Assembly (NCBI GenBank): GCA_902363145.1
Contig: CABIZB010000001.1
Coordinates: 248,001 to 312,000 of the forward strand
Direction of reading: 5' to 3'
From: Oscillospiraceae bacterium
Lineage (GTDB): Bacteria > Bacillota > Clostridia > Oscillospirales > Ruminococcaceae
DNA length: 64,000 bases
Positions 3 to 42,413 of the stretch are shown here, piece after piece (the first letter of the stretch is position 1; each line of letters opens with the position of its first letter). The notes beneath the pieces were generated by a model. The model was not told the origin of the DNA. It was given only the letters and a program-made list of their open reading frames with translations, and ran no database searches. The translations under genes were made by a program, and so were the position numbers.

Positions 3-1589
3 ACCTATGAGAATAAATTCGTAAACACTCTTATAGACAGACTTTTTATTTTTGTAAACAAGCGGTATGAAAAGCTTAAAGCCGTATCCTCCAGCGAAGA
101 AGTATTTGCCATGGAGTACAACACGGCTTTTGAATCGGGCAGCGGCAGAAAAATGAAAATGACGCTGAACATCGAGACCTCCGATTCACTTGAAGCTGCC
201 GATGAGAACGGTTCGACTATATGGGACAGAGTTGAAAAAATACGCAGGATAGTTGAAGGCTACAAGTCATCGCCTTTCTGCCAGCAGATGGGACAGAACT
301 ATATCCGCCCGCCTGTTATGAGAACGAATGCGATTATGAAAAATGTTGACCTCAAGGCGTGCCTTGTGCTATGGCAGTTCATTGAGGGGTATGACAAAAC
401 AGGCTATGAGATAAATGTTTCCGATTCCGCTCAGAAGCCCGATAAGGAGTATGTGGAAAATCTTTATGACCTTTCGGCGCTCAATCTCCTGCTTTTCAGG
501 TCGTTTACTCAGGACAGCGAAGCTGAGGTGCTTAAAACCCAGAAAAGCAAGGCTGCCGCACCCCGTGTTCTGAGAAAATTTGACAAGGTGAGCTATGATG
601 AGCATGAGCTTGTCATTGGCGGTGACAGGCTGACCGATGATGCCGCTTTGGCTCAGGATAACATTTCCGAAAATGAAAAAATACTTGCCGAGATCGACAA
701 GATAATAAAGATAGAGACCGAATACTACAAAGCGGAAGAGCAGAAGCGGCTGGAAGCCGAGGAAAAGGAGCGCAGAAGACAGGAAGAGGAAAGACGTATT
801 GAAGAAGAGCGCAGGCTTGCCAGAGAAAAGGCTGAACGTGAGGAGCAGGAGCGGCTTGAAAAAGCCCGCCTTGAAGCTCTCAGGCTGGAAAAGGAACGCA
901 TTGAGAGTGAAGAACAGGAACGTCTTGAACGTGAGCGCATAGAGCGTGAACGTGCCGAGCTGGAAGAGCAGAAGCGCCTTGATGCCGAGCGTGATGAGCT
1001 TGAAAAGATGATAAATGCCGAGATGGACAAGCTTGAAACCGAGAAGCAGAGCCAGAAGGCAGAGGAAGAACGTCTCAGGCACGAGCGTGAGGAAAGGGAA
1101 AAGCTCAGAGCGGAAAAGCTTAAAGAAATGCGTGCATATCTTGAGCAAAAAAGCTTTGACGAGATATATCCCGAGTATTCAAAAAATCCTATCCATGTTA
1201 TCAGGCGAAGTCTGCGCAGGCTCATATCCCTTATAAGGCAGGACGGCGCTGTTATCAGAGAGGGCGATTCGGACGATCCGAAGCTTATCGAGCGTATAGC
1301 TGCCGAGGCTGCCGCCAAGGCTCAGGCTCAGCGAGATGAAAAGGAAATGGCTGAGATGCAGGTGCTTTACGAAAAATATACGCCGAATTTCAGGCAGAGA
1401 ACAAGGCAGAGCTTCAAAGCATTGTTTGCCCCAAAGCGTAAAAAGGTTTATGTTATGCCTGCGCAGATGCCTGTTCAGCGTTCTCCCAAGGAGCAGAGGG
1501 CTTATGACAGGCAGATGAAGGAGCTTTTCAGAAAATATCATGTAAGCTTCATAACAAAGCTTATCAGAAAGATTAAGAAAGAATACTAA
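3..1589 (+). CDS. Coiled-coil protein with three basic C-terminal repeats (5' partial)
   Basis: The reading frame is open from the first bases of the window, so the true start lies upstream; the first internal ATG is at 111. The N-terminal part is a mixed folded region. A long Glu/Arg-rich coiled coil follows, at roughly residues 200-340 counted from the ATG at 111. The C-terminal part holds three similar basic amphipathic motifs, near IYPEYSKNPIHVIRRSLRRL, LYEKYTPNFRQRTRQSF and LFRKYHVSFITKLIRKI. No signal peptide is visible, so it is probably cytoplasmic. The N-terminal piece faintly recalls DUF2357 proteins, but I cannot confirm this. It precedes the SipW locus on the same strand, but a MITE and about 240 bp separate them. 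The stop codon TAA is also the left target duplication of the MITE. Function unknown. Confidence 0.8.
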   Translation, partial: TYENKFVNTLIDRLFIFVNKRYEKLKAVSSSEEVFAMEYNTAFESGSGRKMKMTLNIETSDSLEAADENGSTIWDRVEKIRRIVEGYKSSPFCQQMGQNYIRPPVMRTNAIMKNVDLKACLVLWQFIEGYDKTGYEINVSDSAQKPDKEYVENLYDLSALNLLLFRSFTQDSEAEVLKTQKSKAAAPRVLRKFDKVSYDEHELVIGGDRLTDDAALAQDNISENEKILAEIDKIIKIETEYYKAEEQKRLEAEEKERRRQEEERRIEEERRLAREKAEREEQERLEKARLEALRLEKERIESEEQERLERERIERERAELEEQKRLDAERDELEKMINAEMDKLETEKQSQKAEEERLRHEREEREKLRAEKLKEMRAYLEQKSFDEIYPEYSKNPIHVIRRSLRRLISLIRQDGAVIREGDSDDPKLIERIAAEAAAKAQAQRDEKEMAEMQVLYEKYTPNFRQRTRQSFKALFAPKRKKVYVMPAQMPVQRSPKEQRAYDRQMKELFRKYHVSFITKLIRKIKKEY

Positions 1590-1750
1590 GAACCCGTCTT
1601 CACAAGCATATGCGCACGTCTTTTCGGCAAATTTTGCCGCAGACTGCGTTAAAAATCCTTGCCGGGCGAAAGCTCGCCTGCGGATTTTTGCCTACTCTGC
1701 AACAAAATTATGCTCGAAAATCCGCACACATTTCTTATGAAGACAGGTTC
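1590..1750 (+). repeat. MITE-1 copy A (161 bp)
   Basis: Imperfect palindrome over its whole length, starting GAACCCGTCTTCACAAG and ending with the near inverse CTTATGAAGACAGGTTC. It is flanked by TAA on both sides (1587-1589 and 1751-1753). The left TAA is the stop codon of the preceding gene. It matches the copies at 4923-5083 and 42246-42406 except for one base (T at 1674, C in the others). It contains no transposase gene, so it is a non-autonomous element. Confidence 0.9.
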
Positions 1751-4262: not shown

Positions 4263-4922
4263 ATGAAAGGCAAAGGAAAACGGCTGCTTATTGCATTTGC
4301 AATGACAGTGCTGATATTCGCAGGTTCGGCAACGGCATACGCATGGTTCACATACCAGCGCAGGCTGACTACCATAACAAAGATAAATGCCCCCACTGCT
4401 CTTATTATCGGAGCGGGTCAGAAAGAAAGCTCGCAGAACATTGATATCGGAGAAATAAATGTTGAGGACGAGGCAGGAAAAAAGGACTTTGTGTTCAGCG
4501 TTTATTCAGATGAATCTGTGTCAAATTACAAGCTGCAGATAGCGCATACCACAAATATCGACTTTACCTATACTGTTTTCCCGGCGCAGGAGCAGCAGGG
4601 GAGCGGAGACGTCGAATATGTTGATGAGGACGGCACTGCACATTATTATAGCAAAAGCGGCAGTGCTGCTTCGGGCAAGTATCTCAATCTTGGCAGCGAC
4701 GGAAAAAAAGCTGACGACAGTCTCCACAAGGAGTCATACGACAGTTATAAAAATGTGCAGGAGAATGCAGAGCCTCTTTACTGGCAGAGCGATGAGATAC
4801 AGCCTGAAAACAACAGCGGTCAGGGGTTTGTAGATTATTATATCCTCGAGATAAGCTGGAATGATGATGTGCGAAATGACAAAGAGACTGATATGGTGTA
4901 TCTGACAGCGGGTATTGTATAA
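4263..4922 (+). CDS. TasA-like secreted protein with SipW-dependent signal
   Basis: A 219-residue protein starting at an ATG preceded by GGAGAGG. The N-terminal hydrophobic segment (about 7-27) ends in ATAYAWFTYQ, the best match in this locus to the SipW signal motif. The mature part starts with a TITKINAPTALIIGAG strand-rich region, as in TasA/CalY-type fibre subunits. It lies 16 bp after its upstream neighbour. Its TAA stop is also the left target duplication of a MITE-1 copy, so the C-terminus is unchanged by the insertion. The role as a fibre subunit is an inference. Confidence 0.84.
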   Translation: MKGKGKRLLIAFAMTVLIFAGSATAYAWFTYQRRLTTITKINAPTALIIGAGQKESSQNIDIGEINVEDEAGKKDFVFSVYSDESVSNYKLQIAHTTNIDFTYTVFPAQEQQGSGDVEYVDEDGTAHYYSKSGSAASGKYLNLGSDGKKADDSLHKESYDSYKNVQENAEPLYWQSDEIQPENNSGQGFVDYYILEISWNDDVRNDKETDMVYLTAGIV

Positions 4923-5083
4923 GAACCCGTCTTCACAAGCATATGCGCACGTCTTTTCGGCAAATTTTGCCGCAGACTGCGTTAAAAATCCTTGCCGGGC
5001 GAAAGCCCGCCTGCGGATTTTTGCCTACTCTGCAACAAAATTATGCTCGAAAATCCGCACACATTTCTTATGAAGACAGGTTC
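4923..5083 (+). repeat. MITE-1 copy B (161 bp)
   Basis: Identical by eye to the copy at 42246-42406 and one base different from 1590-1750. It is flanked by TAA at 4920-4922 (the stop codon of the upstream gene) and 5084-5086. It separates the TasA-like gene from the next secreted-protein gene, so it may act as a processing or termination hairpin within the operon. An open frame runs from inside the element into the next gene. Confidence 0.92.
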
Positions 5084-5114
5084 TAAAAATCCGAGTAATA
5101 CCGGTGATATAAAT

Positions 5115-6098: not shown

Positions 6099-9000
6099 AT
6101 GAAATACAGATCAAAAAGCAGATTTACAGCCTTGTTAACTGCGATAGCGATGATCGCAAGCAATTTCACCGCAAGCAGTCCCGTTTCAAGGTATGTATTA
6201 AATGAAATAAATGTAAGTGCTGCCGATGGAGCAGAGGGGGAGACTACAACTGCCCCTCAGGAGACGACTGTTACCACGGTGACGGGTGAAGCTGACGTTC
6301 CCAATGATACGGAGCAGTCGGACAGTTCATCTGAAACTGCTGTGACCGAGGTATCGCAGAACGACAGCACTAACACAGCAGACGATACGGACGGAACTTC
6401 TGTGCCCTCTGATGACACGACTGTGCCTGACGGCACAGAAGACGATGCAGCCGAAGATGACGGTGACAATGCCGATGATACATCTGTTTCCGACAATGTT
6501 ATCACCATAAACACCTCCGAGCAGTTTGTGGAGTATTCAAAAAATTATGAGGCAGACCCTGCAAAATATCAGAATATTGATGTTTCCATTGCTATTACAT
6601 CGGGTAATCTTGATAATCTGGTTGGTTTTGTAAGCATCGGAACTGCCCAGTATCCTTTTGCGGCAAATATTAAGGTAACAAGCGATTCCGAATTCAAGCT
6701 GACCCTTGACCAGCCGCTTTTTGCTTATATATATGACTCTGCAAATATAAATACCGATGTTATAATTTCAAGGTCACTTCCTGTAAGCGGAGATGTGTCC
6801 GATTCAGCGCTGTTTGCGGAGCACGTTATACATGATACTGAAAAAAACACCACTGCACAGTGGAGTGTAAGCTTGATGAACGCAGAGGCAGCCTTCTCCT
6901 CAGTGATAGGAACACTGGGAGAGAATGTAAATGCTAAGCTTACCATAACCAACAATGCAGATTCCGTTTCCGTATCGGGCAGCGGCAGCGCAGGTCTTGC
7001 CTGCGGCAGAATGGAGAAAAATTCATCGCTGACTGTGATAACTTCAGGTAGTGCTTCTTACAATGTTTCCTCCTCAAGCGGAAACGCAGGCGGAATGATC
7101 GGTACCATGGCAGATGGCAGTGCATTTACCCTGAACAATGAATTCGCCTTAACGGGAGAAGTAACTGCAGCAGGATATGCAGGCGGTCTGGTGGGCTATG
7201 CGGAAAATGCGTCTGTTTCTTTTGAGGGTACCGCAATGGTATCGGGAACGGTCGGCGGAGCTTTGGCTACAGGCGGCGTTTTCGGATATTATAAAAGTTC
7301 GGAAGCTGAAAACAGCTTTGATATCTCAAGATATGCTGTCAGCTGCACCCTTAACGGAGAAAACTCCGGCGGACTTTTCGGAAAGCTTGAAAACAGCGGA
7401 AATATGACTATAAACAAAAGTAATACCGAAGCCGCTGATATAAGCGTTAACAGAACATCTTCCGACAAGCAGATCTTTGGCGGACTTATAGGCACATATC
7501 TTTCGGAAAGTACAAGCAACTCTCTTACTATAAGCGGGATCTCTGTGTCTGCCGATAATTCGGCAGGCGGTGCGGAATATTTCGGCGGACTTATGGGCAA
7601 GGCAGATGACGATTCATATATCAGGCTGGAAAATGTAAGCGTTTCTGCATCAGGCTGCAAAAATGTAACAAGCTTTGGCGGAATTGCAGGCTATGCGGAC
7701 AAGGCTTTTATTGATGCCGAAAATGTAACGGTAAATACTAACGGCGATTTTATCGGCGGCGGTGTTATCGGAAATATGAACGGCGGCGTTCTGCGCCTTG
7801 GCGGCACTACTGACCTTACAGGTACAAAGGCAGCAGGCGGCGGACAGATAATAGGTACAAGGGGAGCTGCGCTTATTTATGCTCAAAACGGCTGGCAGCT
7901 CAACAGGGGAGAGGCTGCGTCTTTTGATGATATAGGCACATGGGGCGAGGTGCTCAGACTCAGTTCTTCACTTCGTGAGGATAATATCTTTAATATCAAC
8001 GAGACTGAGCATACCGTTACCGTAAAAAGAGCAGGAACCACAGTGGGCAGCCTTGCCGAATTTGCCGTTCTGGCGCTGAATATGCAGCTGAACAGCGGAA
8101 TTTCTTCCGACAGCACGCTTCTTTTTGAAAGCACATCAACAACGAGCACAAGCCTTTTAAGCTCGGATATTACATTAAACTGCAATATAGACCTCTCGGG
8201 CACAGGTATAACAGGTCTTACCCGTGACGACGGTGAGAATGATGCCTATACAGGAACTTTTAACGGCAGCGGTCATACTATCACCCTTGCTGTAGGCGAG
8301 CCTTACGGCTATCGCAGCAATACAGCCCTTGCAGCAGGTGACGCATCCGATGGAAACGGCAGAATATACCGCCATTATTACAGCGGTTTGTTTGCAAAGA
8401 CAGAAAATATTACTTTCAATAACTTAATTGTTGACGGTATTATCAATGTAAAATATACCGATAATGCAAGGTACTATATCGGCGGACTATCAGCATTGCA
8501 CAGCGGAAACATTACCGTTCAGGATCTGACTGTACAGGAAAATATAAATGTGTCAGGCAATACAGGCAATTATTGTTTTGTGGGCGGTATTGCAGGACAA
8601 GCAGCAGAAAATTCATCTCCTGCCATTGTTGTCAGCGGAAGCACCATATCACCCGAGATAAACTGCAGCGGCAATGCGAATTTTATCTGCGGCGGTGCGT
8701 TTGCTGAAATTGGTCAGAATGACAAGTTTTCTGTAACGGCTGATAATGTTAAGCTTGGAGCTGCTGTGACAAACAGCAGTACAGCAGGCAGTAAAAAGGT
8801 CGGGGGATTTATAGGCAATATAAGCAGCAATAATGGAGCAGCATCTGACAGAACCATTTCCCTGACAAATATTACAATAGACAGCGAAAATGTGACCTCT
8901 GCATATGGCGGAGCTTTACTGGGCGAATCATGGAACAACTGTGAGGTGTCTGTCGGTTCTGAGACCGAAAAGGGTATCACCGTAAAAAGCGCAGAGGTCA

Positions 9001-12000
9001 CTCAGAATGGAAACGGTGACTTTGCGGGCTTTGTAACCAATGCTACAGGCTGCTGGAAGGTATATGACGTAAATATTGAAGGAATAACTGTAAGCGGCGC
9101 TTCGGCTGCTTCTTTTGGTATGCTTGTAAATAAGGGCGTTTACAAATATGATAGTATTACAACGGCGCTTTATCTTGAGACAGAAAGCGAAAATGCCTAT
9201 AAAATCGGCAGTGCCGTTATCAGTATCGGTTTAAATACCATTTATGATGAGATCATAGCTACCTGCTCGGGCAGCTTTGATGATGAAGATGCTGTTCTTT
9301 GGAATGATACGTGCGCTGTTGTTTCAATACACACAAGCGGCGGAGCTGTAACAATGGACGGTGCAGGCTGTAATACTTATCAGAATCAGACCTCTGTAAA
9401 AAAGGCAAATCCCTATTCCAGATACTATTATGATCTTGATGTTATCAGAGGTAAGAATGTTTCTGAGCGTACCGATGCCGAAAAGCTTATGCTGTGGAGC
9501 GTAAATCTGTATGCTTACAGCAATATCAAGCAGTATTTCAATGATGCTTTTAATAAGACTTCTATCCCCGCAGGCAATTATGATATGACGGGCTATTCCT
9601 ACTATCCCGTAGATATGCCGTCAGGCATGAATATTGCGGACGGAGCAGTCTTCACATTCTGCAATGATAAGATAGTAAACGGTGAAAAGCCTGCCGTCGG
9701 CGAAAGGTCGCAGCATTATCTTATGCACTGCGGACTTTTCAGAAATTCTGACGGAAACATAACAGCGGGCAATATCACATTTTCGGGCACTGTCGGTGCA
9801 GATACCGACTACAGCGGAGCTATGTTCTGCGGAACTGTTATGGGCTCGGTAAACAGCACAGCAAAAGCTGTCCTGAATGGCATTGTTCTTGACGGCATAA
9901 GAGTAAACAGCACCGAGAGCACAGCTCCATTGCTTATAAATAAAATAGACAGCTATACTGCCCTTGAACTCAGCAATGTAAGCACTACCGAGAAATACAG
10001 GACAGAAAATATCTCTGCTGCCGCTTCAAGCCTTATCGGCGATGTGGGCAGCAGAGACGGAAACTCCAAGGATATCAAGCTCACATTCAGCGGACTTACT
10101 CTGGACGGCAGAAAAGCAGCGGTATCCGACACTGCAGTAAATGCAGCTCTCAGCAAAGCATATAATACCGATATGTCAATTTTCAGCAAGGCAATTCTGC
10201 TCAACAGCTTCAGATTTAAAGCAGGAAGCAACTGCTCGGGTACATATAATTTCAGGCGTGATGAGGACTGGGACGAAGATTCTGCCAAGCATAACGTTGC
10301 ATATGGCATGGAAATATCAGGCTCCAAGGAATACAAGGATATGCAGAAAATGTATTTCAAGAGCGATTCCTACACCGATCCCACAGGCGAAGATGCTGAA
10401 TATGATTTCAGCAGTTTTCTGCCCTATGTTGCGGCATCTTACAGCAAAAATAATTATCATGAGATAAAGGTCAATCAGACCGCTCTGGCAGAGCTGGACA
10501 CAGGCTGCGGAACCTACAATGACCCCTACATAATAAGTCAGGGAAAGCAGCTGGAGCTTCTTGACAAGATACTCAGCAACAACCTTGGCGACAGCGAGGA
10601 CGGCGCAGTTGTAAACTATCAGGAGAACAGCTATTCAGCATGGTGCAATGAGAAAAACAGCCATAAGGTTCTGTTATGGGATGCCGAAAGCAGCTGCTTT
10701 AGATCTGAGGACGGCACAACAAGTATTAAGCTTGCCGACATGCAGAAGACGCTTGCATCGGCTTACTATATGCTTGGCAATGATGTAACCATAACCTCGG
10801 CTGACTTTGTGGGAATAGGAAAAAATGTGCCGTTTAAGGGAGCGGTATTCGGCAATGGTCATGCCATAACCAATGAAACTGTCCAGCCTCTTATTTATCA
10901 GAGCACAGGTGCGGTCATAAAGGATATCACCGTTAATGTAACCGCCAATTTTAAAGGAAAGTTTTCCGCAGCTGCTGACAGCAAGTATGAAACTGACGGC
11001 AACGGCACAACTGCATTTTACGGCGGAGTTATCGGCATAGTAAACGGCGGCGACAACATTATTGATAATGTAAGCGTTGAATTTACAAATGCGGGAACTA
11101 TTGACATTAAATCGGGTACTAATTACGGCAACAAGGCTGTTGGCGGATACATCGGCGTTATCAGATACGGCGGAGTTATTTTCCGCAATATGGACAATGC
11201 TTCACATTCGGGAATTACCGCCGGCATGAATAACATATTCGGAAGCAACGCTCTGCTTTACTGTAATCCCATTATCGGAAGAGTTATTGACGGCTTTGCT
11301 GTGACCGAGACTTCTGCATTCAACGGAGCAGAAGATAAGGTCACTATGAAGAACGGCACAAAGAACTATTCCATTGCGGATATCAGCACGGCTGCCGATA
11401 AAATAAGCTTTGAAAGTAATGACACAAACTCAGGCACAATAAAGATCAGCGATTCCCAGCAGCTTTTTATTCTGAGCTGTATCTCTATGAGCGGTGCGGG
11501 AAGCGCAGATTCAAGCGGATATTCCAAGTTTAGCTACGGTGAGAATAAAATGGTCCGTCATGCACTTTACAGCGATATAGGTACAGATGACTCTGAGGGT
11601 AACACGTCTGATTATGCTGTTGCAAAGACTGACGCTTATGTGAAAAACACAGTTCCGTACATCATATACAAATACACAAATGCAATTAGCGGCTCATATC
11701 CTGCAAGGAACCTGACAAACCACAATTTTGCATTTGATATCGACCTTGCCAAGAACACATATGAACTTCCCGACGGCTTCCGTGGTATCGGTTCGCTCAA
11801 CAGCTCCGATGCTGATATGGCAATGCACATCAACAGCCTGAACGGAAACGGTTCGACTGTTAAGCTGAATATGAGCTTTTACAGGTATGGAAAAGATTAT
11901 GATCGGTATTATAACGATATTAACATCAATAATACAACTTCCGTTGATTGTAAAACCGGATTGGGCTTGTTCAACAATCTTATTCAATCAAGTGATAATG

Positions 12001-15000
12001 AAAACAATACAATTTCAAATCTTACCATCAGCGGTCATGTCGATTATGAGTATTATAAAGATCACAGTGGAAAGAAAAATATTATTTATGAGAATAATAG
12101 TTCTTTCAGCTGTGTAGGTGCTTTGGCGGGTGTAGGCAGTAATTTGCGACTTGATAAGATACAGCTGGAGAAGCTTAGTGTTAATTCGTGTTTTGTTTCA
12201 GGAGGAATAGTCGGCTTTGCAAAGAAACTTGTTCAAATTAAAGACTTGAAATCAGATGATCTGAACGTTAGTGCCAATTTCTTTTCAGGCGGAATAATTG
12301 GAATTGCAGGAAATTGCAATGTGAAGATCGATGGCAGTTCCGATTCAGAAGGATTGATCAGGGGTTCAATTACTTCAGGATCAATAAGTCTGGTCGGTGA
12401 TACAAGCCGTGGTGAAGGTGCATCATTATATGGTGTTGGTATTGGTGCTGCCACTGTTATCGGAGCTTTCCTAAATACCAATAATACTGTGTTAACAAGT
12501 TTATCGGTGACAAACATCAACATAGAAGATCTGGACATCAGTGCACCTCTAATAGGAAGAGCAATGTTAGGCGGTATTGTTGGCTGCTGCGGAAATACTA
12601 CTGCAAAAAATATTCAAAGCCGAATACAGAATGTTGATATTAAAAATGTGGATATCAATAAAGAGGTCAAGAGATTTGCTTTTAACGGAGGGATTATTGG
12701 ACTGGTCAAGGAGGGTGTAAAGAAATGTGAAATAAGCAATGTGAAGATAATCGGTGATAAGAATAATAAAAATACCATAACCGGTTACAGGCACAGTGGC
12801 GGTATTATAGGGTTGACTTCAAGTGATACAATAATTGACAACTGTTTGATTGAGAATTACGAAATAGTCACAGACGAATACGGAGAAGATGTAGGAGGTA
12901 TAGTTGGAAAAATAAATGATAATAAAAGCACTTTGATTGTAAAAAACAGCAAAATCTCGGATTGTGTAATAAAAATCAATGATAATAACAGTAAGAACAG
13001 TGATGGCACTTATTCGGGTGGAATTGTCGGAAAAATGGCTAAAAATTCTTGCTTATATGGCTATAACATTTCATTGGATAATGTTCAGTTTAAAAATAAT
13101 GAAAATAAAAAAGCAGGAGCAGGTGAGATATGCGGCTATATGCAGAACAATACCAAGGTGAAAGTGGTTGGCATCAGCGCAAGAAAAGGTGAGAGCGGAA
13201 TTCCCGCTAATATAATAAGCAAAAAAGACAACATAAATACTGCTCCATCGCTCTGTATCTACGCTGACTATAACGGCAGCTGCCTTGATGAGCCGGCTGC
13301 AAATAAAGAGGCTTCAACTATCAGCAGCGACAGCAATGTTGACGACATGGGAGCATATCCCTATGTAACGGTAAATCCCAAGAATGTTATTGACAAGACT
13401 GCCGACAGTCCTAAGTTCCTTACAGGCGACGGTGCTGACAAATCGGCGGTTGAGGCTATCATAGCCGATATCAGTAAGGGTATGGGTTACATAAATGCTG
13501 CCGATGAGTACAATGATGTCTTCCAAAAGTATGAGGGGAAGCTTACAACCTTCAATGAGAAAACAGGTGCGTCAGTTCCCGATGATTTCTCGGTACTGCT
13601 CATAAATGAGTCCAACTACAGAAAAATCACCGAAATGCTCAACAGCTTTATACATATCCTTACAAATGATACATCTATCAGCAGCTATGCTCAGACAGGC
13701 AGCAGTGTTTTTAGTGTTGACATAATGCCAATGAGACTGAATGAGACAAGCGGAGCTTTTGAATCAGGGGAGAACTTTACCAAGACGCTGGAATACAAAA
13801 ACGGTTATTTCAGAATGACCAACATGGATTATGACAGCAATTACAAGCAGTTTACCCTGATAGACATTCAGTATCTTGACCCTGCCGATACCTCAAAGAC
13901 TGCATATCATCTGTACATTCCCGTTTATGTTGAAAAAATGCTGAATTTTGATTTCATGGCAGCCGCTCTTTCGGGAACGACTTACAATGTAAGCGCATAT
14001 ACCGACGGCAATCCTGTTCTTGAAAACTATGGCACTCCTATTACAGCGCACGTTACATATTCTTACAAGAGAACTGCTGAGGAATGGCAGAATGTTATCA
14101 ACGGCGGAGAAAATCTGCTTACGGCATACGGAAAGTATGTACTTCTGGAAAGCAAGCAAGACCTGCCCGATGATACAAGTCTGGTGCTGGTGGACAGAAA
14201 CAACGGTTCCAAGGCGTATTATTCCACAATAGGCGAGGCTTTTACCGCCTCTGACGATAAGCTGGACTTTTCTAAGTTCAGCACCTCCGACGGCAAAGGA
14301 TTTGAGCCTGTGACTTTCTGCGATCTGCTGAAAAAAGCGGCAGATATCACAGTTTCGCAAGCTGACGACGGAACACTTGTAAAATGCAGCAATGATATTT
14401 CAAAGGCGACCTTTAAGATAGGAGACGATTATTACAGAAAAAAGACAGAATCCGATACAGATGCCTCATTGCTCTACAGCGTGACCCTTACTGCAAAAGA
14501 GGGCATGACCGATGCTGACGGTATTCTTATTCTTGATGAGGATTATTATATCAGCTTTTTCACCAAGGCTGACAACAGCGAGCCAATGAGAAACATCACC
14601 ATGAAATGCGGCTCAAGGCTCGGTGATACTGATATGACTCCCTCACGTCTGGATAACGAAAGTGCATCGGAGAGTATGGTGCATATGATACTCGGAAATC
14701 TGTATGACCAGACCTTTACTTTCAGGACTACCGGCGACCAGGTCATCAACGACAGTAACCGAGTGCTAAAAGCCGAGCTTACCGCTACCATCTCCTTGAA
14801 GTCGGAAAGTGCGGAAAATGTCAAGTCATACCTTAATTATGACTCGATAAAACTGTATCACGGTTTTGTTATTGAAGCCACAAGAACAGACGAAAGCGGC
14901 ACGGACAAGGGTATAAAGGGAAATCCCAGCGTTTCGGGCACATATAAGATAGGCAGCACGGAATACGCTAAGAATTTCTCCAACACGGATTCAGTGATAA

Positions 15001-15818
15001 TGGTATCGGGAGGAACAGAGGAAGCTCCTTTGGACATCAAAGCTCGGCTGATAAGCGGCAGTGTTACCATTACCTGCGATGATATGGTGATAACTTATCC
15101 GGACGGCGAAAGTATTATTGCCCAGTTTCCGGAGCGTAAGGATCGGGACGATACCTACGGAGTTACATTGTCGGCAAGTTCAAACCTTGCTTATGTTTCC
15201 GATAACATTGAGCAGAGCAAGATGTCTGAAAGCAGGAGCGACAGCAACGGCAAATCATACTATCGTGAAAATATTGAGGCTGCCACACTGAGCTACAATC
15301 TCCCTTCAAATTCACCCAATGAGATGATAAGGCTCGGTATCAACGGCCTTGATACCAATGACAAGATCACGGCAGTGGGTTATTACAATGTTCTCAACCT
15401 GCCTGAGTCTGCCATCAGCAAGGCGAAAAAGGTAAGCTTTACGCTTTCGCTGTATCAAAAGACAGACAGCGGTATCTATGATGCTGTTCCGATAGCGGAA
15501 TATCTTGAGAACATAATACTTTATGACAAAAACGGTACAGCCAAAGCCCCTGTATCAAGCGGAGATTCTTATGAGTATGTATTTGACAGGGAAACCGAGC
15601 TGAATTATGAAGCAGGCTCGTTTGAAGTGATATCAAGCTACTCTGTAATAACAGGCGGGGCTTTTGAAAGCAAGGGAAAAACATATTCCAACTACAAGGT
15701 CCAGCTTACTGCCCAGCTGCTTGATGAGAACGGTGAGCCTATTGAAAATTCAGGCTGCAGTGACTATATAATTTATACAAATGCTAAAATCAATTCGCAG
15801 CTAATATCGGTGGGCTGA
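6099..15818 (+). CDS. Giant secreted GLUG-repeat surface protein (3239 aa)
   Basis: Start ATG at 6099 is preceded by ATAGGAGC. An N-terminal signal peptide (about 1-43) is followed by a Thr/Asp/Glu-rich low-complexity linker (about 44-125). A very long array then carries repeated motifs such as FGGLIGTYLS, FGGLMGKADD, FGGIAGYAD and SGGIIGLTS. These match the GLUG-type motif seen in large bacterial adhesins, with a predicted beta-helix or beta-solenoid. The last 700 residues lack these repeats and look like stacked beta domains. No LPxTG sorting signal, membrane anchor or dockerin is visible at the C-terminus, so attachment may depend on the other proteins of this locus. Residues about 1927-2357 are coded by markedly AT-richer DNA. 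The role as an adhesin or fibre is an inference. Confidence 0.88.
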   Translation: MKYRSKSRFTALLTAIAMIASNFTASSPVSRYVLNEINVSAADGAEGETTTAPQETTVTTVTGEADVPNDTEQSDSSSETAVTEVSQNDSTNTADDTDGTSVPSDDTTVPDGTEDDAAEDDGDNADDTSVSDNVITINTSEQFVEYSKNYEADPAKYQNIDVSIAITSGNLDNLVGFVSIGTAQYPFAANIKVTSDSEFKLTLDQPLFAYIYDSANINTDVIISRSLPVSGDVSDSALFAEHVIHDTEKNTTAQWSVSLMNAEAAFSSVIGTLGENVNAKLTITNNADSVSVSGSGSAGLACGRMEKNSSLTVITSGSASYNVSSSSGNAGGMIGTMADGSAFTLNNEFALTGEVTAAGYAGGLVGYAENASVSFEGTAMVSGTVGGALATGGVFGYYKSSEAENSFDISRYAVSCTLNGENSGGLFGKLENSGNMTINKSNTEAADISVNRTSSDKQIFGGLIGTYLSESTSNSLTISGISVSADNSAGGAEYFGGLMGKADDDSYIRLENVSVSASGCKNVTSFGGIAGYADKAFIDAENVTVNTNGDFIGGGVIGNMNGGVLRLGGTTDLTGTKAAGGGQIIGTRGAALIYAQNGWQLNRGEAASFDDIGTWGEVLRLSSSLREDNIFNINETEHTVTVKRAGTTVGSLAEFAVLALNMQLNSGISSDSTLLFESTSTTSTSLLSSDITLNCNIDLSGTGITGLTRDDGENDAYTGTFNGSGHTITLAVGEPYGYRSNTALAAGDASDGNGRIYRHYYSGLFAKTENITFNNLIVDGIINVKYTDNARYYIGGLSALHSGNITVQDLTVQENINVSGNTGNYCFVGGIAGQAAENSSPAIVVSGSTISPEINCSGNANFICGGAFAEIGQNDKFSVTADNVKLGAAVTNSSTAGSKKVGGFIGNISSNNGAASDRTISLTNITIDSENVTSAYGGALLGESWNNCEVSVGSETEKGITVKSAEVTQNGNGDFAGFVTNATGCWKVYDVNIEGITVSGASAASFGMLVNKGVYKYDSITTALYLETESENAYKIGSAVISIGLNTIYDEIIATCSGSFDDEDAVLWNDTCAVVSIHTSGGAVTMDGAGCNTYQNQTSVKKANPYSRYYYDLDVIRGKNVSERTDAEKLMLWSVNLYAYSNIKQYFNDAFNKTSIPAGNYDMTGYSYYPVDMPSGMNIADGAVFTFCNDKIVNGEKPAVGERSQHYLMHCGLFRNSDGNITAGNITFSGTVGADTDYSGAMFCGTVMGSVNSTAKAVLNGIVLDGIRVNSTESTAPLLINKIDSYTALELSNVSTTEKYRTENISAAASSLIGDVGSRDGNSKDIKLTFSGLTLDGRKAAVSDTAVNAALSKAYNTDMSIFSKAILLNSFRFKAGSNCSGTYNFRRDEDWDEDSAKHNVAYGMEISGSKEYKDMQKMYFKSDSYTDPTGEDAEYDFSSFLPYVAASYSKNNYHEIKVNQTALAELDTGCGTYNDPYIISQGKQLELLDKILSNNLGDSEDGAVVNYQENSYSAWCNEKNSHKVLLWDAESSCFRSEDGTTSIKLADMQKTLASAYYMLGNDVTITSADFVGIGKNVPFKGAVFGNGHAITNETVQPLIYQSTGAVIKDITVNVTANFKGKFSAAADSKYETDGNGTTAFYGGVIGIVNGGDNIIDNVSVEFTNAGTIDIKSGTNYGNKAVGGYIGVIRYGGVIFRNMDNASHSGITAGMNNIFGSNALLYCNPIIGRVIDGFAVTETSAFNGAEDKVTMKNGTKNYSIADISTAADKISFESNDTNSGTIKISDSQQLFILSCISMSGAGSADSSGYSKFSYGENKMVRHALYSDIGTDDSEGNTSDYAVAKTDAYVKNTVPYIIYKYTNAISGSYPARNLTNHNFAFDIDLAKNTYELPDGFRGIGSLNSSDADMAMHINSLNGNGSTVKLNMSFYRYGKDYDRYYNDININNTTSVDCKTGLGLFNNLIQSSDNENNTISNLTISGHVDYEYYKDHSGKKNIIYENNSSFSCVGALAGVGSNLRLDKIQLEKLSVNSCFVSGGIVGFAKKLVQIKDLKSDDLNVSANFFSGGIIGIAGNCNVKIDGSSDSEGLIRGSITSGSISLVGDTSRGEGASLYGVGIGAATVIGAFLNTNNTVLTSLSVTNINIEDLDISAPLIGRAMLGGIVGCCGNTTAKNIQSRIQNVDIKNVDINKEVKRFAFNGGIIGLVKEGVKKCEISNVKIIGDKNNKNTITGYRHSGGIIGLTSSDTIIDNCLIENYEIVTDEYGEDVGGIVGKINDNKSTLIVKNSKISDCVIKINDNNSKNSDGTYSGGIVGKMAKNSCLYGYNISLDNVQFKNNENKKAGAGEICGYMQNNTKVKVVGISARKGESGIPANIISKKDNINTAPSLCIYADYNGSCLDEPAANKEASTISSDSNVDDMGAYPYVTVNPKNVIDKTADSPKFLTGDGADKSAVEAIIADISKGMGYINAADEYNDVFQKYEGKLTTFNEKTGASVPDDFSVLLINESNYRKITEMLNSFIHILTNDTSISSYAQTGSSVFSVDIMPMRLNETSGAFESGENFTKTLEYKNGYFRMTNMDYDSNYKQFTLIDIQYLDPADTSKTAYHLYIPVYVEKMLNFDFMAAALSGTTYNVSAYTDGNPVLENYGTPITAHVTYSYKRTAEEWQNVINGGENLLTAYGKYVLLESKQDLPDDTSLVLVDRNNGSKAYYSTIGEAFTASDDKLDFSKFSTSDGKGFEPVTFCDLLKKAADITVSQADDGTLVKCSNDISKATFKIGDDYYRKKTESDTDASLLYSVTLTAKEGMTDADGILILDEDYYISFFTKADNSEPMRNITMKCGSRLGDTDMTPSRLDNESASESMVHMILGNLYDQTFTFRTTGDQVINDSNRVLKAELTATISLKSESAENVKSYLNYDSIKLYHGFVIEATRTDESGTDKGIKGNPSVSGTYKIGSTEYAKNFSNTDSVIMVSGGTEEAPLDIKARLISGSVTITCDDMVITYPDGESIIAQFPERKDRDDTYGVTLSASSNLAYVSDNIEQSKMSESRSDSNGKSYYRENIEAATLSYNLPSNSPNEMIRLGINGLDTNDKITAVGYYNVLNLPESAISKAKKVSFTLSLYQKTDSGIYDAVPIAEYLENIILYDKNGTAKAPVSSGDSYEYVFDRETELNYEAGSFEVISSYSVITGGAFESKGKTYSNYKVQLTAQLLDENGEPIENSGCSDYIIYTNAKINSQLISVG

Positions 15819-15870: not shown

Positions 15871-15981
15871 CTGTGCCATAAAAAGAGCAGCAGTCAAATT
15901 AGGCTTGAATTTGCATAAAAAACGCCCCTTACTTTGCAATATACAAAATAAGAAGCGTTATATACGAAATATATATGCTGA

Positions 15982-16081
15982 TACTAATCACCAATAAAAC
16001 TATAGACAAAAAATCATCGCATAATCCATATACGCAAGATTATGCTCAATTTTTTGTATAGTTTTTAATTGGTGCTTAGTA
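15982..16081 (+). repeat. MITE-2 copy A (100 bp)
   Basis: Terminal inverted repeats are TACTAATCACCAATAAAA and its near inverse ending in GGTGCTTAGTA; the body is an imperfect palindrome. The flanking duplication is TGA (15979-15981 and 16082-16084). The other att-like repeat at 34490-34742 lacks the element at this point, which serves as an empty-site control and confirms insertion. It is identical by eye to 42143-42242. Confidence 0.93.
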
Positions 16082-16210
16082 TGAAAAGAAGTCCGTAACT
16101 CGGATTTTTTACCCTTTGCGTATATCATAGCTTTGATATATTTTTCTTGATTAAGCAAAAAATGCAATTTTGAAAAAAGCCGCCAAACGACGTATTGAAG
16201 CCGTTTAAAA

Positions 16211-16264
16211 TCAGTCTTCTTCCTCTTCCTCAGGCATATCCCAGTTGTGATATACGTTCTGAAC
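16211..16264 (-). pseudogene. 3' fragment of yebC
   Basis: This encodes the last 17 residues of YebC (VQNVYHNWDMPEEEEED) in the same frame and orientation as the intact gene at 34689-35432, after which similarity stops. It is the remote half of the island's direct repeat and has no start codon. Confidence 0.85.
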
Positions 16265-17468: not shown

Positions 17469-20400
17469 TTAACGTTTACCCTTTTGCTTGTTGTAAGCCA
17501 GATTGATTGACTTGTTCAAAGCGTCGGTATATTCGATAAAACGTTCGTCCAGCTTGTTTTCGATAGCGGATATTGTCTTTTTATCAGCACTGCCTTCAAT
17601 ATTGATCGTACAATTAAACGCAGGCTGAGTGTTGACTTGAACTACATCAGCAGGCTCGATAATCTGATTGGTCTTGATATTCGAGTTGATAGGAATATCA
17701 GCGCTTCTCGTAAACGCCTGAATTGCCTGGGCAACAACTTTAGCTTCTCCGCCGGTTGCCTCGGCTATAGGAACGATACCCTTTTTGCGAGCCCTTTGCT
17801 GCCTCATGTAGTCTGCGAAAGAGCCGGTAAATGTTCCACTTTCAAGTGCCTTTTGATAGTCAGTCTTATTTTTATCATGTTCAGCCTTTGTGGTTGCATT
17901 AACCTTATGGCCCAGACCCTCAACAGGTTCACCGTTGATTATAACAGGTTTCTTTGTAAGCTTATCCGTCTTTTCAGCGGCTACAAGGTTAAAGCCGCCT
18001 GCGGTAACTGTATCTGTGGGCTGCTCCGCATTGTTTTCAGTCTTGTGAATATCATTGCTTTCACTAACAGTTGCGGCAAGGTCATTTATAGCCTTTGTAC
18101 TGTCGGCAAACGCTGTGTTCAGACTGCCCGTCATTTTATCCAGCGCACTGTAATTCAGCTCAAAACCGCCGTCAGTTTCGGTTATCAGACCGCTTTCAAG
18201 TGCCTTTTGCTTTTCGGTCTCCGATAATCTGGAAACTGCCGCATTTACATCACCCGATTTTGTCAGATTGTCAATCAAAGCCCTGTTGCTTTCGGTCTGG
18301 TCGGTATCGCCGCCGATTTTATCAAGGATATCGCTCAGAGTTTCGCATACATCTTCCTGATACTCTTTTTGAGTTTCAAGCGCTTCCTTTTGTGCGCTGT
18401 AATAGTCCTTGGCATCGTCACGCTGTTCTTCCAGAATATCTTTCTGATCTTCAAGAATGGCTTTCTGCTCATCTTTGAGAGCATCTTCCAAGTCCTGTTT
18501 GGCTTCATCAAGATTTTGCTGGGCTTCCTCAATATCTGTGTTATCCGCTTGTGCTTCCCAGCCGTTGTTGGTAAGCACGATATATTTCTTGATACCAGCT
18601 TTGTTAAGCTCCTTTTCGGCTTCCTTTACTTTTTTCTGAGCCTCAAGGATTTTGCGCTTTCTGTCCTCTGCTTCACGTTCCTTGTCAATGGCTTTTATCT
18701 TCTTGTCAATGGCGTTTATTTCGTTATCATAAGTTTTTTCTATCGCATCGGACAATTTTTCAACGGCTTTTATGCGTTCGTTCATCATATCGGAATAATC
18801 GTCTTTGAGTTCACTGATATAATCCTTTTCTGATTCGATTTCCTTCTTATTGATATCGATAAGCTTGTCATTAAGACTGTCAAGGTCATCTGTAAGCTGC
18901 TCAATGTCGTCATTGTCACCGCTTACAGTGCCGTTTTTGATACCGTTAATTCTTGCCTGTGTCTCAGCTATCGCAGAATTAATCTGTTCACGGGCATAGT
19001 CAAACTTATTTGTTGCTGTAGTAGTTGCATTTTCAGCAGCTTCACTCACATCAAGCCATTGCTCTTGAATATTGTGTAAAGTAACGTCCCAGTCATCACA
19101 AGCCTTAATTATATCCTGAATATGCTGTGTGGGATTATCGGTTTCAAGGCTGTTAAAGTCCTCGTCAGTAATGCCAAGCCCTGTATCAACTTTAAGCACA
19201 AGCCCCTTTGTATCAGCTTTTAAGATATCATCAGAGCCTTCGAGTGTTTCGTAAAGATACTTAGCAAGTGTATCATCATCAAGAATTGTGCCGTCTGGGA
19301 GGATAGGTGTGTAGTGTACAGCAACATACTCGCCGTTCTCCTCATCACCCTGCCACAAAAACTCTGAGCTTGATAAAACTGTTGCCGTTGAGCCATCGTC
19401 CATAGCAACTTTAGGACGCTTAGTAAGGTCAACATTGCCCAGTCCGTATTCAGACTGCATTTTCTTGTTAAACTCTTCAAGCTCCTTGTTTGCATTGGGA
19501 ATTTCGATTTTATCATCAAGTGCCTTGTCAGCCAGCTTTTCAAGGTTGTCAATTTTCTTGTCAAAAAGATTTTGTTCACGGTCTGAACGTGCCTTGTAAA
19601 CCTCTTCTTCGTACTTGTTATACTCGTCCTGATATTTAGTAAGGTCGGAGAAATACTGCTTGTATGCACCGTCAAGCCAGTTTATGTATTCGTCCTGTGT
19701 TACCTTATTCATTTCAAGGTCATGGTTCCACTGGGAATACAGCTTGTCAAAGGCTTCTTTGTTTTTGTCTGTATTGTCATTTTCAAAAGATGGAGCGGTA
19801 AGACTTGTTATGTCACCGTTTATCTGGGAGATAAGCCCACGGATATCTTCAATATTCGCCCCACGCTTCGCAAGCTCAAGTGTGATTTCAGATAATCTGC
19901 CTGCATTTGCTTCCATATCGGCTTTTGCAAGGGCTTCATATTCCTGTCTTAAATCCGATACGGCGCTCTGTTCATCTCTGAGCTTATCTTCAAGACTGTT
20001 TTTCTCGTTCACAAGGTCAAGGCGTATCTTTTCCTGTTTCTGAGCATTAAGCTTTTCATAAGCCTGCACATCCAATTTGACCGCTCCTGTGACCTTATCA
20101 GTAACAAGAGCTTCACTGTAGCCAGCTTCCGACAGTTCCCTTATAGTGCTTGCTGATAACTGGCCGTGCTTTTTCTGTTCTTCCAGAGCAGATTTTAAAC
20201 TCTTCTGATTTTTTATGAAGCTGTCTGCGGATTTACTGAGAGCTTCATAAGCCTTCTGAATATCTTCAAGTGACTTTTCATCAACTTCCGCTTTGATAGT
20301 GTTGTCGGGATTGGATTTCCAAGCTGCTATTTTCTGACTTGCGCCCTCTAAGCCTTCTGAAAATAAGTCAGGTATCTTTGTGGCAATTTCAAGCTCATTA

Positions 20401-23297
20401 TCATCAAGCTCTGTTAAAAAGTGCTGCCTGTCTTCATTAGTGGTTTTCGCATACTCAGCTTCACTTGCCGAGCTGTCCTTCGGAATATAAGCAAACATTT
20501 TTTTAGCTGTGGAGAGATTATTATAGTAGCTCTCAAGGTCTGGAAGCTGTTCAGCCAGTATCATTTCAAGATTTTTCTTTATTCTCTTGTCTCCGTCAGC
20601 TGATTTAAGAAGCCCGTCACGCCATACATAATAGCTTTCTTTTCCAAGCCCTTTGATTGAGTTTTCATTGACATAATTGTCAAACAGGTTTTCAGCGACC
20701 ATCTTTTTTTCAGTTTCATAAATACTGCGATTTTCGTCAAGAACTTTTTTCATAGCGGCGGCTTCATTGTTCAAAAGTTCAAGCAGTCTTTCTTCCTCAT
20801 CTGTTCGGTCGGTGTCATTTCCCAGTGCCGATATTATTTCTTGCAGGTTTTCATATTTTTCAATCATATCATCGCCTGCAACCTCAAATTCGGTGTACTG
20901 GAAGAGCAAACCATTATCTGACTTATGCTCTGCACTCTTGAACATATTGATTATTTTATCATCTATATTGTTGAGATCTATTTTTCCGTCAACTGATACG
21001 TCTTCAATGCGGATAATTCCGTCTGTTTGTCCGCCTGTCAAGCCGTTTTGATTGCTCTCTATCTTATTTCTGGCTGTTTTTATTGCAGAAACATTATTAC
21101 CAAGCCATTCGCCACGGGAAGCAATATTGGCAAGTTTGATTTCACGTTCAAGAAGCTCTATGCCCTGTTCACGTTCAAGGTTCAGGTTGTGCAGTGCATC
21201 TTCTGTAAGACCATAAGTATTTGTCAGTTCGTTTTTTAGTTCAATAAGCTGCTGTACCTTTGAGATTTCAGAATCGGAGCTGTCGCATATCTCAGTGTAT
21301 TTGTTTTTTAGCTTTTCAAGTGATTTTACTTGTTCATCGGTCTTTTCAGCAGAATCCCTCGCTGATTGCGCCATATCTTCCTGCTTCTGCTTATATTCGG
21401 ATATTGCTGCTGCCCCTGCTGTTAAAGCCGTTATGACCAAGCCTATTGGATTAGTCGCAATGCTCATTTTGAGAGCTTCCCATGCTCCACGCAGTGAAAA
21501 AGTTGCTGCGGCTGCGGTTCCCTCTGCGGTAATAAGTCTCATAATTGTAAGTTGCGCTCTTGCTTCCGCATCGGTCAACCCCTGCTGTCTGAGAATACTT
21601 ATGCGCTGTTCATTGCTGAGTGCTCTGCTGCTAATAATAAGTCTTTGCTGTGCTTCTGTACACCTGTTATATGCAGCAACAAGCTGATTGGTCTGCTGTG
21701 CTGTAAGACCGCTCCCTTGTCTTGCAAGGTTCATAGCAGCCGTGAAATTTACCACATTATTTCTTACATTAACCAAACCTGTTCCAAGATGGAGCAGTCC
21801 GCTTATTGCTCCTGTAAATACAAGCGCTTTAATACCTGTCTCCATAAGCTTTGTTTTGTCAATAAACTCAACGATCTCGGCAGTATCTACAGCAAGACCC
21901 TTAATAAAGTCTGAACTAACTGTGTTATAAGCGAGACTTTCAAAAGCAGCGGTAAGGCGATTAGTGGCAGCCTCAAGGGAATTTTCATATACCTCAAATT
22001 TCTGATATGCCGTTCCTGCTGAATTAGCCGATACCTCAGACAGTTCCAGCGCACGGTTGAAGTTTTCGAATAGTGTTATGACATTTTCACGCTGATATAC
22101 TCCGCCAAACGCATTTGCAATAGCATTCTGATCAACAGAGGAGAACTTGTCCCATGCCATACCTACATCATATATTACATCTTCAAAATTTCTGAACTCT
22201 GTAACGCTATTTCTAAGTTTTATATCAAACTGAGCCAGTGTCTTTTCAACATCGTTTATTTCTCCGCTGATATCCTTGCCGTCCTCATCTATCCAGTTGT
22301 TAAGCTTGATTTTTCCCATACGTGCCAGTATGGTTTTAAATGATTCACCAACAACACTATCTGATTTTTGAGTTACTTCCGCAACTGTCACAATATATCC
22401 GATAAGAGCATCCATTGATACGCCTGCTACATCTGCGGAGTTCGCACACTTTGACATTGCCTCAGCCAGTCCACCAGCGCTTGTAGCTGATTCAAGGTCA
22501 ACATTAGTCAGTTTATCAACAATGCCTATAACATCGGAAGTTTCAGCTTTAAAACCGTTCATTGTACTTGTCAGATATTTTGTCGCTTCCGCTGCATCTA
22601 TCTGACCTACCTTTGATAATATAACACTGTCCTTGATAAGCTCGTTAGTTTCAGCAACCGATTTACCCTGTCTTAACCATTCATCGGCACCAGATGCAAC
22701 GTCAATAGTAGTAACAGACAGGTCTTTTGCAAGTTCATTGTATTTGCCCATAAGGCTGGCCATTTCAGCATTTGATTTTCCCGTTACTATTTGTAAATCC
22801 GTTTGTGCCTTGTTAAGCTCGGCAGAGGTATCAACAACCTTTCTTATGCCTTGACTAACCTGTTCAAGCACTCTGTACCAGCTGATATATGATTGAAGCA
22901 GACCTTGTATGCCTGTTCTTTGATCTGCAACCTGTTCCTGCTCGTGCTGAACATTGCGTAAATTTGCCTGTGTATCCTGTAATCCTTCATTGTTAACTTC
23001 AACGGGAATACTGATAGGGTTATTCTGTGCCTCTGACTGTAGCTCTTGAGTTGCTCTGTTGAGTGATGACCTGAGTCCAGCACGGTCAATTCTCGCATTT
23101 ACCCGTATAGATTGTGTGTTGCATATTTCACTGATATCTCGCTGAATAGCTGCCCTTGTTGCACCTTTATTCAGCTTGCCTATTAGCTTTATGAAAAACG
23201 GTGTGTTTTCAAGCTTTGTAACATCTGACTGAACATTAGCCTTGCTCAGACTTTGGTTAAGCTTTGCAACAAGCCTTATAAATAAATTGTCTGCCAT
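17469..23297 (-). CDS. Phage tail tape measure protein (TP901 type)
   Basis: Start ATG at 23297 is chosen because AAAGGA lies just upstream; the open frame 34 codons longer has no such site and crosses a divergent promoter. The 1942-residue protein has a PhageMin_Tail-type core at about 150-360 (VVDTSAELNKAQTDLQIVTG, then the ADEWLRQG and MGKIKLNNW regions). An Ala/Gly-rich hydrophobic segment follows near IATNPIGLVITALTAGAAA, then long coiled coils including a strongly charged one in the last third. In phages this protein sets tail length and passes into the host membrane. No head, portal, terminase, tube or sheath gene lies nearby, which is unusual. It is either a remnant or a repurposed protein. 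Confidence 0.92.
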   Translation of the reverse strand: MADNLFIRLVAKLNQSLSKANVQSDVTKLENTPFFIKLIGKLNKGATRAAIQRDISEICNTQSIRVNARIDRAGLRSSLNRATQELQSEAQNNPISIPVEVNNEGLQDTQANLRNVQHEQEQVADQRTGIQGLLQSYISWYRVLEQVSQGIRKVVDTSAELNKAQTDLQIVTGKSNAEMASLMGKYNELAKDLSVTTIDVASGADEWLRQGKSVAETNELIKDSVILSKVGQIDAAEATKYLTSTMNGFKAETSDVIGIVDKLTNVDLESATSAGGLAEAMSKCANSADVAGVSMDALIGYIVTVAEVTQKSDSVVGESFKTILARMGKIKLNNWIDEDGKDISGEINDVEKTLAQFDIKLRNSVTEFRNFEDVIYDVGMAWDKFSSVDQNAIANAFGGVYQRENVITLFENFNRALELSEVSANSAGTAYQKFEVYENSLEAATNRLTAAFESLAYNTVSSDFIKGLAVDTAEIVEFIDKTKLMETGIKALVFTGAISGLLHLGTGLVNVRNNVVNFTAAMNLARQGSGLTAQQTNQLVAAYNRCTEAQQRLIISSRALSNEQRISILRQQGLTDAEARAQLTIMRLITAEGTAAAATFSLRGAWEALKMSIATNPIGLVITALTAGAAAISEYKQKQEDMAQSARDSAEKTDEQVKSLEKLKNKYTEICDSSDSEISKVQQLIELKNELTNTYGLTEDALHNLNLEREQGIELLEREIKLANIASRGEWLGNNVSAIKTARNKIESNQNGLTGGQTDGIIRIEDVSVDGKIDLNNIDDKIINMFKSAEHKSDNGLLFQYTEFEVAGDDMIEKYENLQEIISALGNDTDRTDEEERLLELLNNEAAAMKKVLDENRSIYETEKKMVAENLFDNYVNENSIKGLGKESYYVWRDGLLKSADGDKRIKKNLEMILAEQLPDLESYYNNLSTAKKMFAYIPKDSSASEAEYAKTTNEDRQHFLTELDDNELEIATKIPDLFSEGLEGASQKIAAWKSNPDNTIKAEVDEKSLEDIQKAYEALSKSADSFIKNQKSLKSALEEQKKHGQLSASTIRELSEAGYSEALVTDKVTGAVKLDVQAYEKLNAQKQEKIRLDLVNEKNSLEDKLRDEQSAVSDLRQEYEALAKADMEANAGRLSEITLELAKRGANIEDIRGLISQINGDITSLTAPSFENDNTDKNKEAFDKLYSQWNHDLEMNKVTQDEYINWLDGAYKQYFSDLTKYQDEYNKYEEEVYKARSDREQNLFDKKIDNLEKLADKALDDKIEIPNANKELEEFNKKMQSEYGLGNVDLTKRPKVAMDDGSTATVLSSSEFLWQGDEENGEYVAVHYTPILPDGTILDDDTLAKYLYETLEGSDDILKADTKGLVLKVDTGLGITDEDFNSLETDNPTQHIQDIIKACDDWDVTLHNIQEQWLDVSEAAENATTTATNKFDYAREQINSAIAETQARINGIKNGTVSGDNDDIEQLTDDLDSLNDKLIDINKKEIESEKDYISELKDDYSDMMNERIKAVEKLSDAIEKTYDNEINAIDKKIKAIDKEREAEDRKRKILEAQKKVKEAEKELNKAGIKKYIVLTNNGWEAQADNTDIEEAQQNLDEAKQDLEDALKDEQKAILEDQKDILEEQRDDAKDYYSAQKEALETQKEYQEDVCETLSDILDKIGGDTDQTESNRALIDNLTKSGDVNAAVSRLSETEKQKALESGLITETDGGFELNYSALDKMTGSLNTAFADSTKAINDLAATVSESNDIHKTENNAEQPTDTVTAGGFNLVAAEKTDKLTKKPVIINGEPVEGLGHKVNATTKAEHDKNKTDYQKALESGTFTGSFADYMRQQRARKKGIVPIAEATGGEAKVVAQAIQAFTRSADIPINSNIKTNQIIEPADVVQVNTQPAFNCTINIEGSADKKTISAIENKLDERFIEYTDALNKSINLAYNKQKGKR

Positions 23298-23329
23298 ATT
23301 TTTTTCCTTTCTGTAAACTTTTTTGATGG

Positions 23330-23358
23330 TTGACACATAAAATGTTCTGTGATATAAT
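23330..23358 (+). promoter_or_regulatory. Consensus sigma-A promoter for the zinc-ribbon gene
   Basis: TTGACA (23330-23335), a 17-bp spacer and TATAAT (23353-23358) form a perfect vegetative promoter in the gap between the divergent tape-measure and zinc-ribbon genes, 40 bp before the latter's ATG. Confidence 0.88.
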
Positions 23359-23397
23359 ATACATATAAGATATTTATTTAAATAGTGGGGTGAGAGC

Positions 23398-34497: not shown

Positions 34498-34742
34498 AAA
34501 AAAGCGCTCCTTACTTTGCAATATACAAAATAAGAAGCGTTATATACGAAATATATATGCTGAAAGAAGTCCGTAACTCGGATTTTTTACCCTTTGCGTA
34601 TATCATAGCTTTGATATATTTTTCTTGATTCAGCAAAAAATGCAATTTTGAAAAAAACCGCCAAACGACGTATTGAAGCCGTTTAAAATCAGTCTTCTTC
34701 CTCTTCCTCAGGCATATCCCAGTTGTGATATACGTTCTGAAC
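34490..34742. repeat. Right direct repeat of the island (attR-like)
   Basis: It spans the integrase start, the int-yebC gap and the last 54 bases of yebC. It matches 15908-16264 apart from the MITE-2 in the left copy and a few single-base differences (for example TTCAGC against TTAAGC, and GCGCTCC against CGCCCC). The yebC end is the natural part of the target. A palindrome-like sequence GCGTTATATACGAAATATATATGC lies in both copies and may be an integrase binding site. Confidence 0.8.
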
Positions 34743-42043: not shown

Positions 42044-42142
42044 ATTTTCACTGCTTTCTTGAATGATTTTGGTGCATTTACATCATTATAGCATATTATG
42101 TTCTGTTTGTCTATAGTTTTTTGAAATTAAAGCGGAGTATAA

Positions 42143-42242: not shown

Positions 42243-42245
42243 TAA

Positions 42246-42406: not shown

Positions 42407-42413
42407 TAAATTA

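Follow-up and report, generated by a model that had tools for sequence, protein, structure and literature searches.

The usual view of MITEs defines them by their ends and takes them for decayed insertion sequences (ISs) with an idle middle. Three bacterial repeats are among the known systems closest to the element reported here. Correia elements of Neisseria (NEMIS, CREE) are palindromes of about 106-156 bp which, in the passage of PMC2229807 that concerns them, have TA at their termini, and a passage of PMC2649163 has their hairpins in mRNA bind RNase III, with the RNA cleaved or protected. ERIC of enterobacteria is also palindromic, and its insertion alters mRNA levels via RNase E according to part of PMC10969869. 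RUP of Streptococcus pneumoniae, in the relevant passage of PMC2229807, is a MITE moved by an IS with which it shares its ends; we liken it to our element by description, and it differs in its IS630 partner and its TA target. Here we describe MITE-1, in which an internal loop and a length of about 160 bp persist while the inverted-repeat ends vary widely. Varying ends around a conserved folded middle are the reverse of what is expected for such elements. No description of this element or its shared core was found in open-licence papers, mostly titles and abstracts and hence weak evidence of absence, and neither is mentioned in the passages concerned of PMC10969869, PMC2229807, PMC2267715 and PMC2649163. 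In Rfam 15, no family reached its gathering score in the window and 15 diverse loci, the best weak match having an E value of 0.4.

The window, a stretch of 64,000 nucleotides from an Oscillospiraceae bacterium, contains three MITE-1 copies (Table 1). Its sequence confirms the original prediction of three 161-bp copies with 0-1 differences and TAA on both sides: copies 2 and 3 are the same throughout, and copy 1 differs from them at element position 85 only. The full-length pattern occurs three times in the window and in none of 100 shuffles. Copies 1 and 2 begin directly after the in-frame stops of ORFs of 492 and 219 aa, respectively, whereas 7 bp separate copy 3 from the stop of the convergent ORF 42414-43343(-); the claim that each copy sits at a gene's stop codon therefore does not hold in the window, where two of the three do. 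At 42140-42409, two unrelated MITEs have a target in common, in the order TAA, MITE-2, TAA, MITE-1, TAA. MITE-2 is another TNA element of 100 bp with ends TACTAA..., present at 15982-16081, 42143-42242 and, in reverse, about 62397-62504; the first of these is inserted in a repeat (15917-16264) with TGA on both sides, and the second copy of that repeat (34499-34742) is an empty site with one TGA. Relatives of MITE-2 were also found within a decayed IS5 relic of genome G001 (L144). Pfam families were recognised in two of nine neighbouring ORFs scanned, a signal peptidase S26 and an AraC-type regulator. The window also holds two very long ORFs, 6099-15818 (3239 aa) and 17469-23399 (1976 aa), and the signal-peptidase-like gene (1828-2493) is a few kb from the former.

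Table 1 Positions in the window of the MITE-1 copies, their target flanks, the adjoining MITE-2 and the internal loops of copy 2
Feature	Position	Strand	Remark
MITE-1 copy 1	1590-1750	-	161 bp; listed on S, the strand that folds better
MITE-1 copy 2	4923-5083	-	161 bp; identical to copy 3
MITE-1 copy 3	42246-42406	-	161 bp
Left TAA flank of copy 1	1587-1589	+	Stop of ORF 111-1589; partner TAA at 1751-1753
Left TAA flank of copy 2	4920-4922	+	Stop of ORF 4263-4922; partner TAA at 5084-5086
TAA flanking MITE-2 on the right and MITE-1 copy 3 on the left	42243-42245	.	Right TAA of copy 3 at 42407-42409
MITE-2	42143-42242	.	100 bp; TAA flanks; adjoins copy 3
Outer internal loop, 5' side, copy 2	5023-5029	-	Family ACAAGGM; here AGTAGGC
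Outer internal loop, 3' side, copy 2	4977-4983	-	Family RACGCAG; here AACGCAG
Inner internal loop, 5' side, copy 2	5011-5015	-	CGCAG
Inner internal loop, 3' side, copy 2	4990-4994	-	CAAGG

A single pattern scan of species genomes for an element of about 160 bp with both ends returned at least 120 stretches. Titles among the matches listed were mostly Ruminococcus, Oscillospiraceae or Clostridia, with one Rickettsiales MAG, one alphaproteobacterium and one record titled Bacteroides. Together with the window, the listed stretches gave at least 125 elements, and the flanking trinucleotides were identical in 99 of the 123 with both flanks, all of them TNA. We pooled 116 of the 125 (leaving out seven from the Rickettsiales MAG and two alphaproteobacterial) with 106 matches of a structural model described below; from these 222 elements, 10 with shared flanks were removed, and the resulting 212 comprise 133 with and 64 without a TNA duplication and 15 near locus ends. 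Identical TNA flanks were present in 142 of 210 pooled relatives compared with 17-40 in shifted controls, and the predicted MITE with a TNA target is upheld by both sets of counts. A single target copy was seen in 2 of 201 joined-flank comparisons. Length is nearly constant, at 160-162 bp in 190 of the 212. The data support MITE-1 as a MITE, that is, a short multicopy element with terminal inverted repeats and no transposase gene inside. At least 11 copies in G001 are identical to the window element despite 69% identity in the single coding region compared, which means that MITE-1 spreads between species and that recent spread is real; over a single coding region G011 is 79% identical to the window, and its full-length copies are 93-95% identical. 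No full MITE-1 element was found in viral contigs.

Some same-ended sequences have other interiors or hardly any. The Rickettsiales MAG (L001, L015, L057, L060, L063, L082, L104) carries palindromes of about 150-161 bp with the same GAACCTGTCTTC ends and a different, AT-rich interior. Derivatives of 46-47 bp with both ends and almost no interior lie at L079:2798-2844, L079:5794-5840, L079:6369-6415, L017:6218 and L020:4856, and paired ends 34 or 32 bp apart suggest many more short derivatives in G004 and others of about 48 bp in G224. The 47-bp pieces were considered as proof of a dispensable core and dropped, with equal flanks in one of five.

The two strands of the element do not fold equally well, an addition to the original prediction. 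Folded as RNA, the window element reaches -61.3 kcal/mol (z -6.9) on the + strand and -90.7 kcal/mol (z -11.9) on the - strand. A strand defined by a sequence motif (S) folds better in all 118 elements so assigned; the motif is absent from the seven remaining elements of the 125, which all come from the Rickettsiales MAG. For an alignment of 25 S-strand sequences, folding gives -57.2 kcal/mol (the other strand, -31.4), with double changes at 32 of 53 pairs. G.U outnumbers A.C by 105:15. At E<=0.001, the model built on this alignment (R1) finds matches in 106 of the 297 family genomes, and in 41 of them the match is below 1e-15; at most nine or seven candidates were scored per genome in this search and the two wider ones described below. 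In 100 fetched regions, 106 R1 matches below 1e-18 were found, of which S folds better in 103; G.U to A.C is 454:88 in this set, where the strand was chosen by the model. In 40 diverse rows, every one of the 53 pairs shows double changes and 92.4% of cells pair; the figure is 57.3% after shuffling and at most 46.2% after sliding. Without two wrong-strand rows, the remaining 38 have 143 G.U and 16 A.C cells. The fitting of alignments A3 and A5 to the model biases them towards its structure.

Within the hairpin lies a conserved asymmetric internal loop, ACAAGGM facing RACGCAG. Across the 38 rows, its columns hold C 37, A 36, G 36 and G 36 facing A 37, C 36 and G 34, with G 36 further on; the model having chosen these rows, part of this conservation is selection. 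Covariation without pairing links the base after AAGG to the one before ACG: among the 144 scorable of 212 elements, the combinations are C.A 105, A.G 30, A.A 7, A.C 2 and C.G 0, and in the 38 rows C.A 25, A.G 10, A.A 2 and G.C 1. An intrinsic terminator was rejected, as the A and U tracts covary and are not fixed.

The ends are far more varied. Among the 212 pooled elements, GAACCTGT(C/A)TTCA accounts for 157, followed by GAACYTGTTCYCA (11, with TNA duplications in 10), GGGNNTGTT (10, with TA on both sides in 7 by eye), GAGCCTGTTTA (8), GAACCTGTCCACA (7), other GAGC ends (6) and others (13). Cores can be 84% identical though 20 of 32 end bases differ. Single-linkage clustering places 214 of 227 end sequences in one group via intermediates and leaves 13 singletons, so that separate end exchanges may have been few or many. 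Five elements have two ends that differ from each other at 4 or more of 16 bases; three of these carry two end types and none has a duplication, which is also lacking in 64 of the remaining 207. Such mixed-end elements fit recombination between elements, though they are no proof of it.

Autonomous relatives with similar ends, as envisaged in the original prediction, were found in the form of IS5-family elements of about 805-840 bp (NF033580, DUF4096 plus DDE). They resemble MITE-1 in their ends and TNA duplication and, unlike MITE-1, encode a transposase. The L163 IS (808 bp) has two ORFs, DUF4096 and then DDE, ends with 0 and 2 mismatches and AAA/AAA flanks, and two others measure 822 bp (L310, TTA/TTA) and 840 bp (L320, TGA/TAA). 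A further IS, L308 of G136 (939-1905, TTA/TTA), measures about 805 bp once its insert is discounted. The ends of this IS are variant, and those of the MITE that it carries, flanked by TCA/TCA, are nearly the same. In G001, the ends of an IS5 relic match MITE-1 with one mismatch. The correspondence is not general: in G210 the IS ends are GAACCTGTCTTC but five element copies (L226, L227, L242, L260, L268) have other ends, and in G215 the IS and element ends do not match. The transposase is rare, with matches below E 1e-30 in 7 of 297 family genomes, and although 5 of the 7 are also among the 106 genomes with the element, the association over genomes is not significant (5/7 vs 101/290, p 0.10). 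On four IS-carrying loci, R1 scores at most 13.8 bits outside inserted copies, which means that the IS has no core. The L163 transposase has no match in viral contigs; in plasmids, 1987 of 1988 records hold relatives below 60% identity. Two other candidate partners were dropped. Two MITE-1 copies of G001 bracket a gene for an ISAs1-like transposase (L134:948-2778), whose element directly abuts one MITE end with an end of its own; that element has different ends. For the GGG ends an IS630 partner was considered, with DDE_3 present in two of three GGG-end genomes (G281 and G003, not G128) and none of four others, and those ends were not nearby.

Loop and length occur with varied ends in both Clostridia and Pseudomonadota. 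By eye, AGG faces AC in 18 of 20 regions of one fetched set (the exceptions are L343 and L352) and in all 18 loci of a second, the stems and ends being different. For R1 at E<=1e-8, the tallies are 48 genomes out of 391 in the class and 34 out of 398 in the phylum of the Rickettsiales MAG. Both are upper bounds, because the score reaches 46-57 bits for elements that have the right ends and no core, and as much as 49.5 bits for 47-bp pieces made up of ends only.

For comparison with the known families, we collected 14 Neisseria-type stretches by a Correia pattern and searched 11 of them and two E. coli ERIC loci. A model of the diverse rows (R2) matches the single short Correia element in this set (106 bp) at 24.1 bits (E 2.2e-4), the best of 13 sources, with a second match at E 0.52; R1 gives the same element E 0.11, and R2 matched none of eight long (155-156 bp) Correia copies found by script. 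The 106-bp copy reads GGACAAGGC...CCGCAG...GGCAAGG...CAACGC, with the motifs in the S order of MITE-1. Its family ends in TATAGTGGATTAA, whereas MITE-1 ends in GAACCYGTCTTCAYAAG and thus falls outside the Correia end definition, and the TA of Correia termini contrasts with TNA in MITE-1. ERIC is smaller and has other ends. In two E. coli copies, GACAAG faces AACGCAG on one strand by eye; neither copy was matched by R1 without filters or by R2.

Beyond what we observe directly (the mobility signature, ISs with like ends, the structure, the strand bias and the diversity of ends), we give about even chances to MITE-1 being a passenger hairpin, probably active as RNA, that is under selection on the S strand, is mobilised in trans by the IS5 family and changes its transposon ends. 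IS5-family transposases would recognise its inverted-repeat ends and duplicate the TNA target on insertion. Between the ends, the long hairpin with its asymmetric loop would be held by selection on S and form the lasting part, the ends being replaced, probably when elements recombine with one another or with resident insertion sequences. As for function, the core would most likely work as RNA upon transcript read-through, where, by analogy with Correia and ERIC, a nuclease such as RNase III or E may handle the double-stranded structure and so make insertion near gene 3' ends tolerable.

It is unlikely, in our view, that MITE-1 is an ordinary IS5-derived MITE whose neutral interior palindrome is kept by ancestry, recent horizontal spread and palindrome-correcting template switching. 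The identical copies in G001, whose compared coding region is 69% identical, are what such spread would leave, and the Rickettsiales MITEs with the same ends and another interior mean that ends can move without this core. Template switching, however, gives perfect palindromes without strand bias, and here two alignments show G.U in 7- to 9-fold excess over A.C, with an excess of about 5-fold in a third. This bias already strains the neutral account, and so do the conservation of mismatched loops and the covariation of loop-edge bases that do not pair.

Equally improbable to us is that the S strand acts as single-stranded DNA, the hairpin aiding transposition or replication of its element (as a cruciform or strand-specific hairpin) and not working as RNA. 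Strand-specific structure is independent of insertion orientation (among 197 copies, the neighbours in the S frame are -- in 70, ++ in 61, +- in 30 and -+ in 28), and this, like the near-constant length, is in keeping with a DNA role. DNA, moreover, tolerates G.T better than A.C, which counts on the same side. Against it, we know of no strand-specific single-stranded stage in IS5-type transposition.

The original prediction also had the transposon prefer stop codons. Among the 133 TNA-duplicated copies, 16 are inside called genes and 23 of the other 117 are exactly on a stop compared with 6.75 expected, an enrichment of about 3.4-fold (binomial p 2e-7, with a home-made ORF caller and with same-genome copies not independent). 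When the count is extended to the 169 non-genic copies as a whole, a stop is hit exactly by 35 (6.1% of null sites) and lies within 50 bp of 95 (25% for the null). The preference is thus a real enrichment but only a bias, with about 80% of non-genic copies off stops. Targeting of stop codons by the transposon is very improbable in spite of this excess, since 94 of the 117 are elsewhere and the few copies in divergent gaps (28 of 197, vs 199 of 774 sampled intergenic TNA sites) are the promoter avoidance expected from selection; convergent gaps hold 30 of the 197 copies and 79 of the 774 sites. Any TNA is TAA or TGA on one strand, so the target alone explains a preserved stop; for the excess at stops, a better explanation is that insertions at the 3' ends of genes are tolerated. 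Of the 34 copies exactly at a stop, with and without duplications taken together, 25 have S antisense to the gene (p 0.009), which means that a simple role of the S strand in the 3' UTR is not supported. As a guess, a very stable hairpin right after the stop may disturb termination, and the weaker strand may be preferred there.

More tentatively than the passenger-hairpin reading itself, we suggest that the Ruminococcus MITE, Correia and perhaps ERIC belong to one widespread superfamily of portable hairpins, in which an RNA-active core with a fixed loop would survive by end exchange and be moved by any available TNA- or TA-targeting transposase. In MITE-1, conservation between phyla lies in the middle, and it is the ends that can be replaced. 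Should this hold, repeats that bear separate names in different bacteria would have a working part in common, and the long-standing puzzle of what such hairpins do would become testable via a loop of a few bases.
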